Shown one piece after another: positions 2,276-56,300 of a stretch of DNA of 64,000 nt. The position numbers were made by a program, and so were the translations under genes. The DNA is from Desulfosarcina sp. OttesenSCG-928-A07. GTDB taxonomy: Bacteria > Desulfobacterota > Desulfobacteria > Desulfobacterales > Desulfosarcinaceae. How positions within the stretch are numbered: position 1 is the stretch's first letter; every line of letters starts with the position of its first letter. Where the stretch lies: positions 1-64,000 of the forward strand of contig JAJDJS010000010.1 in NCBI GenBank assembly GCA_030267325.1, written 5' to 3'. The notes beneath the pieces are model-generated. The model was not told the origin of the DNA. It saw nothing but the letters and a program-made list of their open reading frames with translations, and made no database searches.

Positions 2276-3682
2276 ATGAAACCGGGTAAAACCAGCTGGC
2301 GTATAAAATCCGTTTCCATTTTTTCGTTCCTCTTTTCCTATATGCTCTCCTTTGTCTTTGAGGGACAGGTGCTTTACAGTCTGCTGAAAGATAGCGGCCT
2401 TAAAGCCGACAGCTACATCGTGACCGGCATTGTTGCCACTTGCATCGGACTTTTTTCCTGTGGTTTTTTCATTAAAACGCTGCGTATGGCAAAGTCCATC
2501 ATGGCCGGTGGAATGCTTGTCAGCCTTGCAGCAACCCTTCCCTTTTTCTTTGCGCCCTCGGCGTTGTGGCTGGCGGCCCTTGGGGTTACAGGCTTTTCTG
2601 CAAGCTGCGCGATTGCCGCCTGGGGTTATTTTCTAAAAGCCTTCACGCCCAGAGATGAACGAATCCATTCCTGTGCCGATGTCTTGATCGCTTCCAACAT
2701 CCTCATGACTTTGATCAATGTGGTGGCGATGAACATTTCACCCCTTATCGGGCTTGCGCTTTCCACATCCTGCCTTTTCATCGGGACACTGCTCGTATGG
2801 CGCTTGCCTGCGGATGAAACACCAGCACCCGCCACCACGGCCGAAAGGAATTCCCCCGGTGATCTGAAAAAGCCGATGATCCTGCTGTTTTTGTTTGTTT
2901 CGATCATCACCGTGAATTCGGGCTTGATGTACCAGGTCATCAATCCTGCGTTCGCGCATCTGACCGGGCTTGTGAGCGGGTATTGGGCAATTCCGTACAT
3001 TATTGCCCTTGTTGTCATGCGAAACCTTCCGGCAAAGACAAATCGTTCCCTGATACTTTATCTGGGGATGGTCATGATCATGGGCGCTTTTATCTCCTTT
3101 ATGCTGATGGGGCGCGGCGCTGCGGACTATCTGGTGATCAATACGCTGATGCTGGGCGCCTGCGGGATCTTTGATCTGTTTTGGTGGAGCATTCTCGGAG
3201 GGATGCTGGACTATGCCAAAAACCCCGTCAAGGTCTTCGGCATCGGCCTTTCGGCCAACGTATTCGGCGTATTGTGCGGCGGTATACTGGGCCTGGGCGT
3301 CACGTCCATCGCTCTGCCTGACGCGCAAGTAACGGTCATCGCCCTTACGGTGGTCTGCGTTACCCTTGTCCTTCTTCCGCCGCTGAACAGGCAGCTGGTG
3401 ATGCTTTTAAAAAATCACGTCTATTTGACCGCATATTCGGGCATGAGTGAAAAGCAGCAAAGTTCCATCATTCAGCATACAGAAATCCTTGTCCCTCTGA
3501 CGCAGCGGGAAAAAGACGTTTTGCTTCAGGTCTTGACCGGAAAATCGAACAAGGCGATTGCCGAGGTGCTCTTTGTCAGTGAAAACACGGTAAAAAGTCA
3601 TCTGAAAAACATCTACGCAAAATATGACGTCAACTCACGCTCGGAGCTGATCAGCTTCATCCTGAAAAACCGAATCCCTTAA
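2276..3682 (+). CDS. Membrane-bound LuxR-family regulator with 12-TM transporter-like domain
   Basis: A 468-residue protein with about twelve hydrophobic segments (roughly residues 12-390) arranged like a major-facilitator transporter, followed by a LuxR-type helix-turn-helix at about 405-465. The HTH carries the family signature: LTQREKDVLLQVLTGKSN, IAEVLFVSENTVKSHLKNIY and a C-terminal SRSELI. Known members of this architecture are thought to sense a small molecule or ion through the membrane part and act on DNA from the membrane; no response-regulator receiver domain is present. The ATG at 2276 has only a weak purine-rich site (AAGAAAAAA). It is divergent from the surface-protein gene and may control it; that link is inferred from position. 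Confidence 0.85.
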   Translation: MKPGKTSWRIKSVSIFSFLFSYMLSFVFEGQVLYSLLKDSGLKADSYIVTGIVATCIGLFSCGFFIKTLRMAKSIMAGGMLVSLAATLPFFFAPSALWLAALGVTGFSASCAIAAWGYFLKAFTPRDERIHSCADVLIASNILMTLINVVAMNISPLIGLALSTSCLFIGTLLVWRLPADETPAPATTAERNSPGDLKKPMILLFLFVSIITVNSGLMYQVINPAFAHLTGLVSGYWAIPYIIALVVMRNLPAKTNRSLILYLGMVMIMGAFISFMLMGRGAADYLVINTLMLGACGIFDLFWWSILGGMLDYAKNPVKVFGIGLSANVFGVLCGGILGLGVTSIALPDAQVTVIALTVVCVTLVLLPPLNRQLVMLLKNHVYLTAYSGMSEKQQSSIIQHTEILVPLTQREKDVLLQVLTGKSNKAIAEVLFVSENTVKSHLKNIYAKYDVNSRSELISFILKNRIP

Positions 3683-3753
3683 TTTTCAGGCGGAAAAAGC
3701 AGTGCAGAGGGCGGGAAAGAAAGTCCAATAAACATCACCCGAAAGGTTAAACC

Positions 3754-4548
3754 ATGCGATACGGCGCCATGAATTTTCCGGCAGCGCCTGTGACAGCTGA
3801 ACTTGAGGCCATTGCCAGCCAGGGATTTGACTACCTGGAACTGGCCATGGATCCGCCCATGGCCCATTATCCGCAGCTCATGGATCAGCGCAAGGCCATT
3901 ATGGCGGCCCTTAACGCAAACGGACTGGGGCTGGTTTGTCATCTGCCCACCTTTGTGTCCACAGCGGATCTCACGGAAAGTATCCGTCTGGCATCCATCA
4001 TGGAAATGCGCAGGTCTCTGGAAACAGCCGCTCTCCTGGGGGCGGAAAAAGTGGTGATTCATCCTTCCATGGCCGTGGGGATGGGAAATTTTGTGCTGGA
4101 CCAGGTCAAGGAATTAACGCTGCTGTTTCTGGCGGAAATGGTGGCCGAGGCAAATCGATTGTGCCTTCCCTTGTGTCTGGAAAACATGTTTCCCCAGAAC
4201 CGGCTGGGGGTAACGCCCGATGATCTGGCGGCCTTGCTTGACCCTTTTCCGTCTCTTCAAATGACCCTGGACACAGGTCACGCCCATATCGGCGACAAAG
4301 ACGGCGTACAGTTGGGAGCTATGGTGAAAGCGCTCGGCCCGCGTATCCATCACATCCATGTGAGTGACAATAACGGAGAACGAGATGCCCATCTGGCGGT
4401 GGGACAGGGAACCATCGGATTTGATGCGTTGGTCAGGGACCTCAAATCCATTGGCTATGATGATACCATTACCCTTGAGGTGTTTGGTGATGATCCATTG
4501 ATGCGGGTGGAAAGTCGGGAGCGGCTCAGAGCCCTGTTTGAGCGTTAG
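3754..4548 (+). CDS. Sugar phosphate isomerase/epimerase-like TIM-barrel protein
   Basis: A 264-residue protein of the xylose-isomerase-like TIM barrel superfamily, which includes AP endonuclease 2. Visible features are FDYLELAMDPP near the N-terminus, KVVIHPSMAVG (residues ~95-105), LCLENMFP with the metal-binding Glu, MTLDTGHAHI with Asp and His ligands, and HHIHVSDNNGERDAHLAVGQGTIGF, then TLEVFGDD. These are the usual divalent-metal ligands of the family. The exact substrate cannot be read. It starts 70 bp after the LuxR gene in the same direction and its last four bases overlap the convergent DHH gene. Confidence 0.8.
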   Translation: MRYGAMNFPAAPVTAELEAIASQGFDYLELAMDPPMAHYPQLMDQRKAIMAALNANGLGLVCHLPTFVSTADLTESIRLASIMEMRRSLETAALLGAEKVVIHPSMAVGMGNFVLDQVKELTLLFLAEMVAEANRLCLPLCLENMFPQNRLGVTPDDLAALLDPFPSLQMTLDTGHAHIGDKDGVQLGAMVKALGPRIHHIHVSDNNGERDAHLAVGQGTIGFDALVRDLKSIGYDDTITLEVFGDDPLMRVESRERLRALFER

Positions 4549-5426
4549 CCGGGCTCATCTTCTTGCATGGCAGCAATGATTTTCTGAAGGTAAGCAGTTT
4601 CTTTTTCACGGGGAAATCGGCAAGCGCCGGCGCCGTAATGTCCGCCACCTTCAAACGCGCCCAGCATTTTTCCCACATTCACACGGCAGCCGCGGTTTAA
4701 AATACTGTGCCCCACCTGGATGCTGGCGGTGTCTTCGTTCTCATATGTGATTTTGACATTGACCGCGCACTGGGGAAAAAGGGAATACACCAAAAACCGG
4801 TTACCCGTGGGTGTGGGATTGAGACGCCGGAAATCCGTGACCGACACCCGGCCCATCACCCGGGTGTTTTCTTTGAGGGCCTTTTCGTAAATCAGATTCG
4901 CGGTCACCACCTGTTCAGAGCGGGCACTGACCTTCTCATCCTGCATCACCTCATCCATGGGCAGGGTTCGCAAAAGGGCGACCAGATGTTCCCAATAGTC
5001 TTGTTCAGACGGATCGCTGGAAAGGGTCATGGAGAGCAAAATAAAAGGGTAGGCTTCGGGGTGGAGGATTTCATCCAGGGTCAGATCCGCTGAGTCAATG
5101 CGATCGGTTTCATGAACCAACTGCCGGTAGTCCCGTTTAAACCGGCCCTGGTAGTGTTCAAAAATAATGCCCGCAGCAGACGGGGCCAGTTTAAAATGGC
5201 CCTTGATGGGTTTGTCCGGTTCATTGGAAATATGGTGGTCAAACCATAAATGGCTTTTTTCGTGATAGGGAAGATTCGCGATCACATCGCCGTCTTGAAT
5301 GTCGACCCGTCCGTGCTGCATATCACTGGGCTGCACCCAGCACACGGGCGGGGCAATATCCAGCGCGTCCATCAACAGGACCGCACACACCACACCGTCG
5401 AAGTCAGGTCTTGTCACGACTCTCAT
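4545..5426 (-). CDS. DHH-family phosphoesterase
   Basis: A 293-residue member of the DHH/DHHA1 family, which hydrolyses phosphodiester bonds in oligoribonucleotides, cyclic dinucleotides or polyphosphate. The N-terminal motif RPDFDGVVCAVLL supplies the first metal-binding Asp residues, LWFDHHISNEP is the DHH signature (~78-85), and ILNRGCRVNVGKML plus FEGGGHYGAGAC at the C-terminus correspond to the substrate-binding GGGH element. Length is close to exopolyphosphatase-like family members. The substrate is not evident. The gene ends overlapping the isomerase-like gene by 4 bp and is 79 bp downstream of a small same-strand gene. Confidence 0.82.
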   Translation of the reverse strand: MRVVTRPDFDGVVCAVLLMDALDIAPPVCWVQPSDMQHGRVDIQDGDVIANLPYHEKSHLWFDHHISNEPDKPIKGHFKLAPSAAGIIFEHYQGRFKRDYRQLVHETDRIDSADLTLDEILHPEAYPFILLSMTLSSDPSEQDYWEHLVALLRTLPMDEVMQDEKVSARSEQVVTANLIYEKALKENTRVMGRVSVTDFRRLNPTPTGNRFLVYSLFPQCAVNVKITYENEDTASIQVGHSILNRGCRVNVGKMLGAFEGGGHYGAGACRFPREKETAYLQKIIAAMQEDEPG

Positions 5427-5505
5427 TCCAACACATCCTCCACTTTTTGGGAGTGTTTGTCAGCGATCCAAAGGGGGGCCAGCAGCACAACCAATAAAGG
5501 CCGGA

Positions 5506-5694
5506 TCAGGTTTCCGGGGAAGGCGTCTCCGGAGCATCTTCCGCCGATTGTCTGACGGTATCACTGACGGAGTTATAAATGGTCCTGAAGGATTCCGGAA
5601 AACTGGCAGGAGAAATGCGTCCGGTTTCAATGAATTTGACCACGATTTCTTTGGCGGTCCGCAGGATCTGTTCATCCAGACTGGTCTTTTTCAT
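5506..5694 (-). CDS. Small conserved-looking hypothetical protein
   Basis: A 62-residue acidic protein beginning MKKTSLDEQILRTAKEIVVK and ending in a Ser/Pro/Glu-rich tail. The N-terminal 45 residues are predicted helical by eye. Codon usage resembles neighbouring genes, the start is preceded by an AAGG sequence, and the gene is 79 bp upstream of the DHH phosphoesterase on the same strand, so it may be co-transcribed. I do not recognise a domain and assign no function. Confidence 0.55.
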   Translation of the reverse strand: MKKTSLDEQILRTAKEIVVKFIETGRISPASFPESFRTIYNSVSDTVRQSAEDAPETPSPET

Positions 5695-50166: not shown

Positions 50167-50213
50167 CAAGATCCGGGTAATGCGATGGATGTCCCTGTGA
50201 AACAGAAGGATAC

Positions 50214-51320
50214 ATGAGAAACATGACAACTTCATTAGAAAAAGAAATTGAACAGCACAAAAAAAAGATTCACTCTGATTCCTACCCGATGTCGATTGGT
50301 GAAGCGATCAGCATGTATATAAACGGTGAAATAGACATTCACCCTGAATTTCAGCGCGTTTACAGATGGACGCTTCTGCAAAAATCCAAATTCATAGAAT
50401 CAATACTTCTCGGCATACCCATTCCTTCTTTCTTTGTGTCCCAGCGTGAAGACGGGGTATGGGACCTGGTTGATGGTCTTCAACGATTTTCGACCATCTT
50501 GTCTTTTATGGGAGAACTTAAGAATGAGGACGGAGAAAAATTACCGCCCTTGACGCTGACAAAAGGGGGCTACCTTTCAGAACTTGACGGAGCAATATGG
50601 AGCGATGAAGAAAAAATATCGAAGCCATTGAAACTGTCTTTTCGCCGCGAAAAAATTGATTTCAAAATTATTAAAAAAGAAAGTACTTCCGACACCAAAT
50701 ATGATTTGTTTCGACGCCTGAACACGGGTGGATCTGAGCTCTCCGATCAAGAAGTCCGAAATTGCCTGCTCTTGATGGCTAATAAAACGTTTTATGAATG
50801 GGTAATTCAAATATCCAAGAATGTGGATTTCGTTGAAACAACGCCACTTAGCGACAGTAAATATGCAGAACAGTACAACATTGAATTGTTAATACGTTTC
50901 ATCGTTTTTTATGAGCTAAAATGGGAAGACGTAACTGCCCCTGTCATTGGCGATATAGGTGAATTCCTGAATGATCAGATTATCGCCATCGCCCAAAACC
51001 CCGATTTTGACACCCAAAATATGGCCGATATATTTTCCAAAACATTTCATCTTATAAACAGCTCTTTAGGCAGCGATGCGTTCAAAAGATTCTATCCTGA
51101 GGAAAGCAAGCATAAAGGTGGATTCTCAATCGCCCTCTTTGAGGCGATATCAACGGGTATCGCGAAGAACATCGCCACCGTTACCACACAGACGTTGAGG
51201 GAGAAAATTGAGAATTTTTCGTTAACCTCTGACTTTACTGCTGCCAGTGGAGCTGGGACGCGGGCAAGTACGCGAGTTTCCAAAACCATTCCTTACGCGA
51301 TAACATATTTCTCATCATGA
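50214..51320 (+). CDS. DUF262 (ParB-like/GmrS-type) protein of a two-gene module
   Basis: A 368-residue protein with an N-terminal DUF262 domain: YPMSIGEAISMYINGEIDIH, PEFQRVYRWTLLQKSKFIES, IPIPSFFVSQREDG and the signature WDLVDGLQRFSTIL (DGxQR type). DUF262 is a ParB-like nucleotide-dependent nuclease or NTPase fold found in GmrSD-type modification-dependent restriction and other defence proteins. The C-terminal part is helical; no HNH motif is seen. The module is clearly more AT-rich than the flanking genes, suggesting transfer. AAGGA lies only three bases before the ATG. Its end overlaps the HEPN gene by 4 bp, so the two act together. Confidence 0.85.
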   Translation: MRNMTTSLEKEIEQHKKKIHSDSYPMSIGEAISMYINGEIDIHPEFQRVYRWTLLQKSKFIESILLGIPIPSFFVSQREDGVWDLVDGLQRFSTILSFMGELKNEDGEKLPPLTLTKGGYLSELDGAIWSDEEKISKPLKLSFRREKIDFKIIKKESTSDTKYDLFRRLNTGGSELSDQEVRNCLLLMANKTFYEWVIQISKNVDFVETTPLSDSKYAEQYNIELLIRFIVFYELKWEDVTAPVIGDIGEFLNDQIIAIAQNPDFDTQNMADIFSKTFHLINSSLGSDAFKRFYPEESKHKGGFSIALFEAISTGIAKNIATVTTQTLREKIENFSLTSDFTAASGAGTRASTRVSKTIPYAITYFSS

Positions 51321-51985
51321 ACGATGCCAAGCTTGAAAAACTTGTCTCAGACATAGAACGGGAATGGAACTGGCGACAGCGGGAGCTTTCTTTTTTTAAG
51401 CAGGCCTTGTCGAGTGCTGACAAATACCAGAAAGAAGCTATATCCCGCGCTGGAATATTGTTGCTTTATTCGCATTGGGAAGGTTTTATAAAAAAAATCA
51501 GCCAGAGATTTCTTGAATGTTTTATCAACGAAGAGATAGACAGTGTTCCGGACTATGTCATGGTATGCCATCTGGCACGGATGAATGACAGTTTTGAGCA
51601 TAAATATTCACGGGTTGAGCGTGCCCGTCATTCTATCGACTGTATATCAGAAGGTTCAAAGGTCTGCCGGTCCTTGGAAAAAGTCATTAATACTGAGTCG
51701 AACCTTGATTCGAAAAACTTGAAAAAAATTGCAGACTCAGTTGGAGCAAGTCTCTCGAAATTCGAAACCAGAATGCAGTTTATTGATCATAATTTTGTAA
51801 GCGTAAGACATGCGATTGCCCATGGTGAGGGCAGAAAGTTCACCGAAGATGAATTTCTGAATTTGGAAAGAGACATTACGGTGCTGATGGATGCATTCAA
51901 GCAAGACGTTATTGACTCTGCTCTGCACGCGAATGCGTTTAATAAAAGTGGCATTCATCATCGTTGCATTAAACTGGAAAGATAG
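51317..51985 (+). CDS. MAE_28990-type HEPN protein, putative ribonuclease partner
   Basis: A 222-residue helical protein of the MAE_28990/MAE_18760 HEPN type. ISRAGILLLYSHWEGFIKKI and RFLECFINEE form the first helices, and HNFVSVRHAIAHGEGRKF contains the catalytic R-x4-H motif (RHAIAH) typical of HEPN ribonucleases. Such proteins are often encoded next to DUF262 proteins in putative defence loci. The ATG overlaps the DUF262 stop (ATGA), indicating coupling. RNA cleavage is inferred from the motif. Confidence 0.85.
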   Translation: MNDAKLEKLVSDIEREWNWRQRELSFFKQALSSADKYQKEAISRAGILLLYSHWEGFIKKISQRFLECFINEEIDSVPDYVMVCHLARMNDSFEHKYSRVERARHSIDCISEGSKVCRSLEKVINTESNLDSKNLKKIADSVGASLSKFETRMQFIDHNFVSVRHAIAHGEGRKFTEDEFLNLERDITVLMDAFKQDVIDSALHANAFNKSGIHHRCIKLER

Positions 51986-52229
51986 GCTTCCCTTGTGGCA
52001 GGGAAATCGTTGCAAGGCTATTTATCGGCAGGAGAAACATACCTTTTGATCGAGGCGTTAATGGTGACGCCTGATTTTAAGCCCCGTCTTGGTTCTCTCA
52101 TCCTATAAAAGTCCGTCTATATGAGAGAGGGAAATTTCCGGTGGGTATCCGTGATTTCGGAAAGTAACCTTGACAAACAGCCCTGTTTCATTTTTTGACC
52201 TCACCTTAAAAAAGAAAGCAGGTACGCAC

Positions 52230-54410: not shown

Positions 54411-56300
54411 ATGAAGCGGTCATTGTATTGGGCAGATGGGTATGTTGAAAAAAAACGAACCGCAGAGGCGGCCATCTCCATGATCCGACCGGGCCAGCGG
54501 GTGTTTATCGGCAGTGCCACGGGCGAACCCCAGGAATTGGTCCGGGCCTTGTCCGCAGGCATCGTCCGGCTCAGCGGCCTTGAGGTGGTCCGGCTGATGG
54601 GCTATGAAACCACCTCCCTGTCTGAAATCGCCGATCAGACCCAGGATCACAATCTCAACATCCGGACCATTTATCTGGGGTCTGCGGACACCGAAGAAAT
54701 TTCCCGGTACATGCGCTTTATCACGCCCCTGAACATCTCGGAGGTGCCGGGGTTATTTTTGTCCCGGAAACTGCCCATTCATGTGGCCCTGATCCAGGTC
54801 TCGCCGCCGGATGATTTCGGATGGATGAGCCTTGGCATTTCCGTGGACATCACCTTGGCTGCGGCCCAGAGCGCGGATCTGGTCATCGCCCAGGTCAACC
54901 CGCAAATGCCGCGCACCATGGGCCAGAGTTTTATCCACGTCAACGCCGTCCATATACTGGTGGAGCACGAAGAACCGCTTTTGTCCACGGGTCTTCGCAA
55001 AAGCGCCAAACGGGCGGAATGGATCGGAAAACATGTCACCCGCCTGATTGAAGACGGCTCCACCCTGCAGATCGGGCTGGATGCCGCTTCCCAGGCCACG
55101 GCCAAAGGACTGGCGGATAAAAACGATCTGGGGTTTCACTCCCAGTACATCACCGATGATGTCATGCACCTGTATGCGTCAGGCGTGATCACCAACCGTA
55201 AAAAAGGCATCAACGAGGGCAAGCTGGTGACGTCCTGCGCCATCGGTACGCCCAATCTCTACGAATTTCTCCACGACAATCCGGGTGTGGATTTCCGGCC
55301 CTCAGATTATGTGAACGATCCCTTTATCATCAGCCAGCACAACCGGATGGTGTCCATGAATGTGGCCCACTCCATTGACCTCACCGGTCAGGTATCGGCG
55401 GAAGCGTCAAAACACACGTTTTTTGCAGGTGTCTCGGGCATTCCGGATTTTGTGCGCGGTGCCAGACGGTCCAAGGGCGGAAAATCCATCATCATGCTGT
55501 TTTCCTCCTCCAAGGACGGAAAACGCAGCCACATTGTACCGTCCCTGGAAAACGCGGCCGTGGTGGTGCCCAGAGGCGATGTTCACTATGTGGCCACCGA
55601 ATACGGAGCGGTCAATCTGTTTGGGAAAAGCCTTCAGGAGCGGGTGCTGGCCCTGATCGGCATTGCCCACCCGGATCATCGGGACTGGCTGTTCAGTGCG
55701 GCCAAGGAAGCCAGGCTCATCGGCAACGAGCGGCATCTGGGAGAGGCCACACGCGGCATTTATCCCATTCAACTGGAAGAGGCCCTTATCCGGGACGGCG
55801 AGGAAATCACCATCCGGCCTTCCAAGCCCGTGGATGAGCGCCGCCTTCAGGAGCATTATTACAACCTGGACAAAAAAGATGTGCAGCTTCGTTTTTTTCA
55901 TGAAAAACGAAGCTTTGACCGCCAGGATGTGGAGATTCGGTCCCAGATTGACTATATCAAGGATCTGACGCTGGTGGCCCTTGTGGGGGAATTCGGTTTC
56001 GGCAAGGTGGTGGGCGTGGGCGAGTATCTGCTGCTTCCTGAAAAAAATTTCGCCGAAGTGGCCTTTTCCATTTCAAAGCCCTATCAGGGAAAAGGGCTGG
56101 GCAAGATCTTCATCCGGAAACTGGCCAGGGCAGCCCGGGAAAACGGCATTGCCGGACTCATCGCCTATACCACACCTCAAAACAAGGCCATGATTTCGCT
56201 CTTCAAGACGCTTCCCTACAAGGTAAAAACCTCTTTTGACGGCGAATCCCTCACCCTGACCTGCCGTTTTGATGAAATCGCCGCACCCGAAGACAACTAG
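54411..56300 (+). CDS. Acetyl-CoA hydrolase/transferase fused to a GNAT domain
   Basis: A 629-residue protein. The first ~440 residues are an acetyl-CoA hydrolase / 4-hydroxybutyrate CoA-transferase domain (RPGQRVFIGSATGEPQELVR, DGSTLQIGLDAASQA, HTFFAGVSGIPDFVRGARRS, AVVVPRGDVHYVATEYGAV, EGRxx-free C-end HPDHRDWLF). The last ~150 residues are a GNAT acetyltransferase domain (VVGVGEYLLLPEKNFAEVAF, KPYQGKGLGKIFIRKLARA, the acetyl-CoA loop). A transferase moving CoA between acids joined to an acetyltransferase could sense or use acetyl-CoA; the role of the fusion is unknown. AGGAGG precedes the ATG and the gene follows the ADP-forming ligase by 30 bp. Confidence 0.9.
   Translation: MKRSLYWADGYVEKKRTAEAAISMIRPGQRVFIGSATGEPQELVRALSAGIVRLSGLEVVRLMGYETTSLSEIADQTQDHNLNIRTIYLGSADTEEISRYMRFITPLNISEVPGLFLSRKLPIHVALIQVSPPDDFGWMSLGISVDITLAAAQSADLVIAQVNPQMPRTMGQSFIHVNAVHILVEHEEPLLSTGLRKSAKRAEWIGKHVTRLIEDGSTLQIGLDAASQATAKGLADKNDLGFHSQYITDDVMHLYASGVITNRKKGINEGKLVTSCAIGTPNLYEFLHDNPGVDFRPSDYVNDPFIISQHNRMVSMNVAHSIDLTGQVSAEASKHTFFAGVSGIPDFVRGARRSKGGKSIIMLFSSSKDGKRSHIVPSLENAAVVVPRGDVHYVATEYGAVNLFGKSLQERVLALIGIAHPDHRDWLFSAAKEARLIGNERHLGEATRGIYPIQLEEALIRDGEEITIRPSKPVDERRLQEHYYNLDKKDVQLRFFHEKRSFDRQDVEIRSQIDYIKDLTLVALVGEFGFGKVVGVGEYLLLPEKNFAEVAFSISKPYQGKGLGKIFIRKLARAARENGIAGLIAYTTPQNKAMISLFKTLPYKVKTSFDGESLTLTCRFDEIAAPEDN

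Follow-up and report, generated by a model that had tools for sequence, protein, structure and literature searches.

Introduction

Among the described systems closest to the locus studied here, PD-T4-2 consists of a DUF262 and a HEPN protein (PMC10952713), and in Escherichia coli ECOR65, where it occurs natively, it protects against T4 (PMC9519451). PtuXYZ brings together a DUF262 protein, an ATPase, and an RNase (PMC11980606). BrxU and SspE have a DUF262 part that binds NTP, hydrolyses it, and governs the DUF1524 nuclease to which it is fused (PMC10952713). HEPN proteins of the MAE_28990 and RiboL-PSP groups have been listed in operons with ParB and DNA methylase genes (Anantharaman 2013, PMC3710099). 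The literature searched, mostly outside subscription journals, contained no experimental test of the DUF262-HEPN family described here. We analysed one pair of this family in a 64-kb stretch of DNA from Desulfosarcina sp. OttesenSCG-928-A07 (hereafter the window), together with its relatives in other genomes, prophages, plasmids, and viral contigs.

Anatomy and composition of the gene pair

We identified two overlapping genes on the forward strand of the window, ORF A and ORF B, with the following features:

50214–51320, + strand: ORF A, 368 aa, DUF262/GmrSD_N protein (ParB/Srx-fold NTPase), predicted sensor
51317–51985, + strand: ORF B, 222 aa, HEPN protein (MAE_28990 / RiboL-PSP group), predicted RNase effector
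51317–51320, + strand: ATGA start/stop overlap of ORF A and ORF B, 4 bases, from the sequence
50469–50486, + strand: VDGLQR motif of ORF A (residues 86–91), expected NTP pocket, from alignments
51806–51826, + strand: HEPN R-x4-H-G motif RHAIAHG of ORF B (R164, H169, G170)
50167–52229, + strand: accessory insertion in the fumarase / acetate-CoA ligase interval, from same-genus synteny (L043–L052)

ORF A has a second in-frame ATG at 50226, which agrees about as well with the N-termini of its relatives. The G+C content of ORF A and ORF B together is 0.414 (41.4%) compared to 0.533 for the window, and is the lowest (rank 1) among 623 stretches of 1772 bp in the window. Pairs were below their flanks in G+C content in 13 of 13 chromosomal loci compared, the window copy included, with a mean difference of −12 points (Wilcoxon p = 0.0002); low G+C content therefore characterises the module irrespective of its location. 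The flanking genes encode a class I fumarase (Fumerase and Fumerase_C domains) on one side and an acetate/acyl-CoA ligase (CoA_binding_2, Succ_CoA_lig, and ATP-grasp_5 domains), followed by a CoA-transferase, on the other, so that the window copy has metabolic genes as neighbours and lies in no defence island. A preliminary description had placed a DUF262 (DGLQR) and a MAE_28990-type HEPN gene (R-x4-H), coupled by a 4-bp overlap and lower in G+C content than the metabolic genes around them, between fumarase and acetate-CoA ligase genes, and each of these points was borne out.

Neither a target-site duplication nor transposon ends were found around the window pair, and no convincing terminator or promoter was found for it. 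One sigma-70-like site (TTGACA, 16, TATATT; 11/12) is situated at 51007–51034 within ORF A, approximately 280 bp ahead of ORF B; the count of sigma-70-like sites is near chance, and one such site could drive ORF B separately. Further along the window, positions 54411–56297 encode an acetyl-CoA hydrolase/transferase with a fused C-terminal GNAT acetyltransferase domain, which is conserved in the genus.

Families, motifs, and predicted folds of ORF A and ORF B

ORF A matched the Pfam family PF03235 (GmrSD_N, DUF262; E = 1.8e-24) as well as the PADLOC models NsnA (218 bits) and PD-T4-2_A (120 bits, E 2.8e-35). Pfam gave no match to a DUF1524 domain in either ORF, and NCBIfam contained no family for ORF A or ORF B. 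D87, G88, Q90, and R91 were invariant in alignments of relatives, and both [IV]DGxQR and P.[FY]QR were kept in 80/80 DUF262 relatives (non-redundant at 90%). The best solved relative of the AlphaFold2 model of ORF A (pLDDT 91) was BrxU (residues 1–420 of 580, Z 8.2), followed by SspE, DndI, and CTP-binding ParB. The long alignment with BrxU had a high rmsd of 13 Å, and close superposition is therefore confined to the N-terminal ParB/Srx part (approximately residues 14–175), as with SspE, on which the model superposed with 3.8 Å over 143 residues. A PDB sequence search with ORF A returned only coatomer matches, which were judged spurious.

ORF B matched two HEPN families in Pfam, PF18735 (HEPN_RiboL-PSP, E = 1.1e-31) and PF18737 (HEPN_MAE_28990, E = 2.8e-26), and carries the active-site motif R164-HAIA-H169-G. 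This R-x4-H-G motif was invariant in two alignments of 20 and 27 ORF B relatives. Conservation of the motif, on which the preliminary description had made its reading depend, extended to 77/77 full-length HEPN relatives (non-redundant at 90%) for R-x4-H, and to 75/77 for the stricter form R[NH]xxxHG, compared to 0.05% of shuffled copies. The top structures for the AlphaFold2 model of ORF B (pLDDT 82) were the HEPN protein 4nqf (Z 10.6) and then the HepT toxin 7ae8 (Z 9.2), as determined with VIA-align; Z scores of 9–11 are modest for a helical bundle, but a HEPN assignment accords with both the motif and the Pfam matches. Foldseek alone gave no significant structure match for the model, and a PDB sequence search with ORF B found nothing. 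ORF B is thus predicted to be a HEPN-fold protein and a putative RNase.

Insertion site and distribution

The fumarase gene was present in 10 of 12 other genomes of the genus, with one match each. Within the stretches extracted around it, the ligase was found downstream in eight of the ten, two showing none, and the CoA-transferase in nine, the tenth stretch having ended before it. The DUF262-HEPN pair was absent from the same-genus genomes compared. In three of them (L045, L047, L052) the gap between fumarase and ligase is just 134–312 bp, while six others (L043, L044, L046, L048, L049, L051) have a conserved opposite-strand regulator, named FadR/GntR-type from its sequence, between the fumarase and the ligase or CoA-transferase; it is absent at the window's fumarase-ligase site. 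Flank homology with the same-genus genomes extends to the 3' end of the fumarase gene and resumes just before the start of the ligase gene. Across the order, ORF B relatives were found in 21 of 291 genomes, spread over 20 genera and including none from the genus besides the present genome. The pair is thus patchily distributed and accessory, which is most naturally read as gain by horizontal transfer.

Pairing of the two genes across relatives

With ORF B searched alone, an ORF A-type gene was situated directly upstream in 14/14 relatives (13 genome loci and one order-level relative). The same arrangement was found in all 31 viral contigs recovered with an ORF B alignment and in 11 of 11 further order-level genome loci that were checked. 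The search with ORF A yielded 80 viral contigs, many of them shared with the ORF B search, and a HEPN gene came next in 74 of the 76 ORF A-type genes with room downstream. One exception (L161) has a different HEPN-like protein downstream (RNDRIHG); in the other (L165), the HEPN is replaced by a P-loop ATPase, recognised from its sequence, as in Menshen. In L165, a member of the same DUF262 family has thus naturally exchanged its effector for one of the Menshen type.

Spacing from A to B in relatives is mostly between −4 and a few bases, with the −4 overlap commonest, and pairwise tree distances of ORF A and ORF B correlate with r = 0.81 (maximum of 0.31 in 999 permutations). Three loci have an intact B gene next to an A gene that carries a nonsense codon (L029) or a frameshift (L129) or is cut to about half (L012), for which sequencing error is possible, and both genes are lost in L163. 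To judge from the loci compared, DUF262 and HEPN genes form a mobile module of two obligately paired genes, in line with the stand-alone two-protein unit suggested by the preliminary description.

Mobile and defence contexts

Relatives of the pair were located on prophages, plasmids, and a phage, and part of these contexts are linked to defence, as the preliminary description had anticipated. Prophage copies adjoin a cI-type repressor at cargo sites (L073, L074, L077), and one pair lies between tail-completion and baseplate genes (L065). Among plasmids, nearer pairs were found in Psychrobacter, beside a BsuBI/PstI restriction-modification (R-M) system, in Leptospira, on a conjugative plasmid of Corynebacterium, and on a 5.7-kb mobilizable Col plasmid of Enterobacter (L054, CP056768.1). 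The L054 pair spans the record start of CP056768.1, and its DUF262 gene is therefore missing from the gene table. More distant DUF262-HEPN pairs are encoded on conjugative IncX1 and IncF plasmids of E. coli. On one of them (L026, IncX1, positions 3010–5524), the end of the replication-initiation gene lies within an overlap with the DUF262 gene, and the HEPN gene comes next; 521 Escherichia plasmid records had some DUF262 match to ORF A.

Phage GenBank records gave no match to ORF B by single-sequence tblastn; a distant pair in the Terrisporobacter phage TVCOM_ph1 was found via ORF A, and an Eco57I-like methylase adjoins it. Eco57I-like methylases are also encoded beside or near the pair in a subset of other loci (L010, L014, L015, L028, L030, L098/L099, L111, L112, L125/L126, L127, L161). 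Most copies, including that of the window, have no methylase nearby, and the two Eco57I-like matches of this genome are on other contigs than the pair. Several chromosomal copies are, like the window copy, situated among metabolic genes.

Proposed function and alternative explanations

A DNase domain is missing from the pair and a HEPN protein is encoded next door; the simplest reading is therefore that ORF A senses and ORF B, a predicted RNase, executes. We consider it rather probable that the DUF262-HEPN pair works in this way as a mobile anti-phage module of two genes. The linkage of the two genes, their correlated divergence, the conserved motifs, the modelled folds, the mobile contexts, and the action of PD-T4-2 against T4 speak for this reading, whereas the metabolic neighbours of the window copy, the modest Z scores of the ORF B model, and the lack of PD-T4-2_B homology in ORF B beyond the motif speak against it. 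We infer that ORF A is an NTP-binding and NTP-hydrolysing sensor with a ParB/Srx fold, of the GmrSD/BrxU/SspE kind and lacking a nuclease domain of its own, which would be triggered by a sign of infection, the simplest candidate being phage DNA or the modification state of that DNA. A nucleotide-driven conformational change in ORF A would then set free the activity of ORF B, its putative contact partner. ORF B would be an RNase of the HEPN homodimer type, with R-x4-H as its active site, and would cut RNA and thereby halt phage production, probably costing the infected cell. The preliminary description had suggested a defence or toxin-antitoxin-like unit in which the DUF262 protein controls an RNase; its two-protein unit, pairing, mobile context, and motif stand, while the data leave room for an ORF A that restrains a toxic ORF B as well as for one that senses infection and switches ORF B on, the latter being favoured.

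It is unlikely, in our estimate, that the pair is a toxin-antitoxin or addiction module, in which ORF B would be constitutively toxic and held inactive by binding of ORF A, loss or degradation of ORF A would free it, and the module would serve first to maintain plasmids and prophages, with any effect on phages a secondary one. The order of the two genes with their overlap, the obligate pairing, the copies that adjoin rep genes or occur on small plasmids, and the match of ORF B to HepT 7ae8 are all consistent with such a module, as is the role of HEPN proteins as RNase toxins in HEPN/MNT pairs (PMC7641770). However, ORF A is a 368-aa NTPase-type sensor rather than a small antitoxin, and the intact B genes behind broken or short A genes (L029, L129, L012), sequencing errors being possible, argue weakly against a strict antitoxin role of A. 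The sensor-effector reading is favoured over a toxin-antitoxin module on fold and family evidence, in that the modelled ORF A resembles the BrxU, SspE, and DndI sensors.

The Eco57I-like methylases beside or near a subset of pairs, together with the operons listed in PMC3710099, where MAE_28990 HEPN genes accompany those of ParB and DNA methylases, would suit an R-M-like system, in which ORF A reads the cognate methylation of an Eco57I-type adenine methylase and the pair attacks un- or wrongly modified elements. We regard this as distinctly improbable given that most copies, that of the window among them, are without a methylase nearby, the genome's own Eco57I-like matches are on other contigs, and the effector is a predicted RNase and not a DNase. 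Lastly, the FadR-type regulator of most same-genus genomes is missing at the window site, as would be expected if the acquired pair had replaced it as a non-defence regulator of the adjoining metabolic transcripts; but the site is empty in other genomes of the genus and relatives of the pair are found in unrelated settings, which in many cases are mobile; this makes such a role very improbable indeed.

Comparison with known systems

The pair resembles PD-T4-2 in its two-gene order, DUF262 followed by a HEPN with R-x4-H, and in ORF A, whose homology spans most of the protein at approximately 25% identity (hhalign probability 99.8). ORF A matched the PD-T4-2_A model, but NsnA scored higher, so that this match is not specific. 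In contrast, ORF B had no match to the PD-T4-2_B model up to E 1, nor did the genome up to E 10, and 13 genomes with related pairs yielded one weak match only (E 0.02). The hhalign alignment of ORF B with an authentic PD-T4-2_B relative covered 14 columns, comprising the RN..AH motif only. L053, which was found with the PD-T4-2_B model, has the same gene order and R-x4-H motif. L026 was considered as PD-T4-2 itself and rejected, as its HEPN fails the PD-T4-2_B model. By the same measure the window pair is not PD-T4-2 proper, its B component failing that model, and because ORF B has no detectable PD-T4-2_B homology beyond the RN..AH motif, the precedent of PD-T4-2, the nearest analogue with experimental proof, is on the effector side one of analogy only.

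ORF A shares its DUF262 subfamily with Menshen (NsnABC), the NsnA model being matched by all 32 members, whereas no ATPase or third gene of the kind present in Menshen and PtuXYZ adjoins the window pair. The NsnB model found its matches in this genome on contigs other than that of the pair; NsnC had no match in the genome, the control search being equally without a match anywhere. Judged by gene content, the window pair is not Menshen, as the ATPase partner is absent. With GmrSD, BrxU, SspE, and DndI it has the DUF262 NTPase-type sensor in common, including DGxQR in ORF A, but it has a separate HEPN protein as predicted effector in place of a DUF1524 HNH nuclease; lacking DUF1524 in its Pfam matches, it is not GmrSD. 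It differs from HEPN/MNT (HepT-MntA) in that the partner of the HEPN is DUF262 and not an MNT nucleotidyltransferase. ORF B matches both HEPN Pfam models of the groups listed in Anantharaman 2013, and ParB is the fold of DUF262; that study gave a bioinformatic remark, whereas obligate pairing, mobile contexts, and the insertion site are documented here.

A PADLOC scan called ORF A as NsnA and returned nothing for ORF B. This library, the one tested, sees half of the module, and recurrent prophage and plasmid cargo would thus be missed in counts of defence. If ORF A switches ORF B on, this would extend the reach of DUF262 sensors from the DNases for which they are known to RNases acting in trans, and the pair would offer a compact two-protein system for finding what DUF262 senses. 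Taking these comparisons together, we consider the chances evenly balanced that such pairs represent a widespread immunity class, in which the sensor of type IV restriction has its DNase exchanged for a trans-acting HEPN RNase and one DUF262 family is plugged into varied effectors, namely HEPN proteins (two sequence families, not detectably related), a Menshen-type ATPase, and the DUF1524 nuclease.
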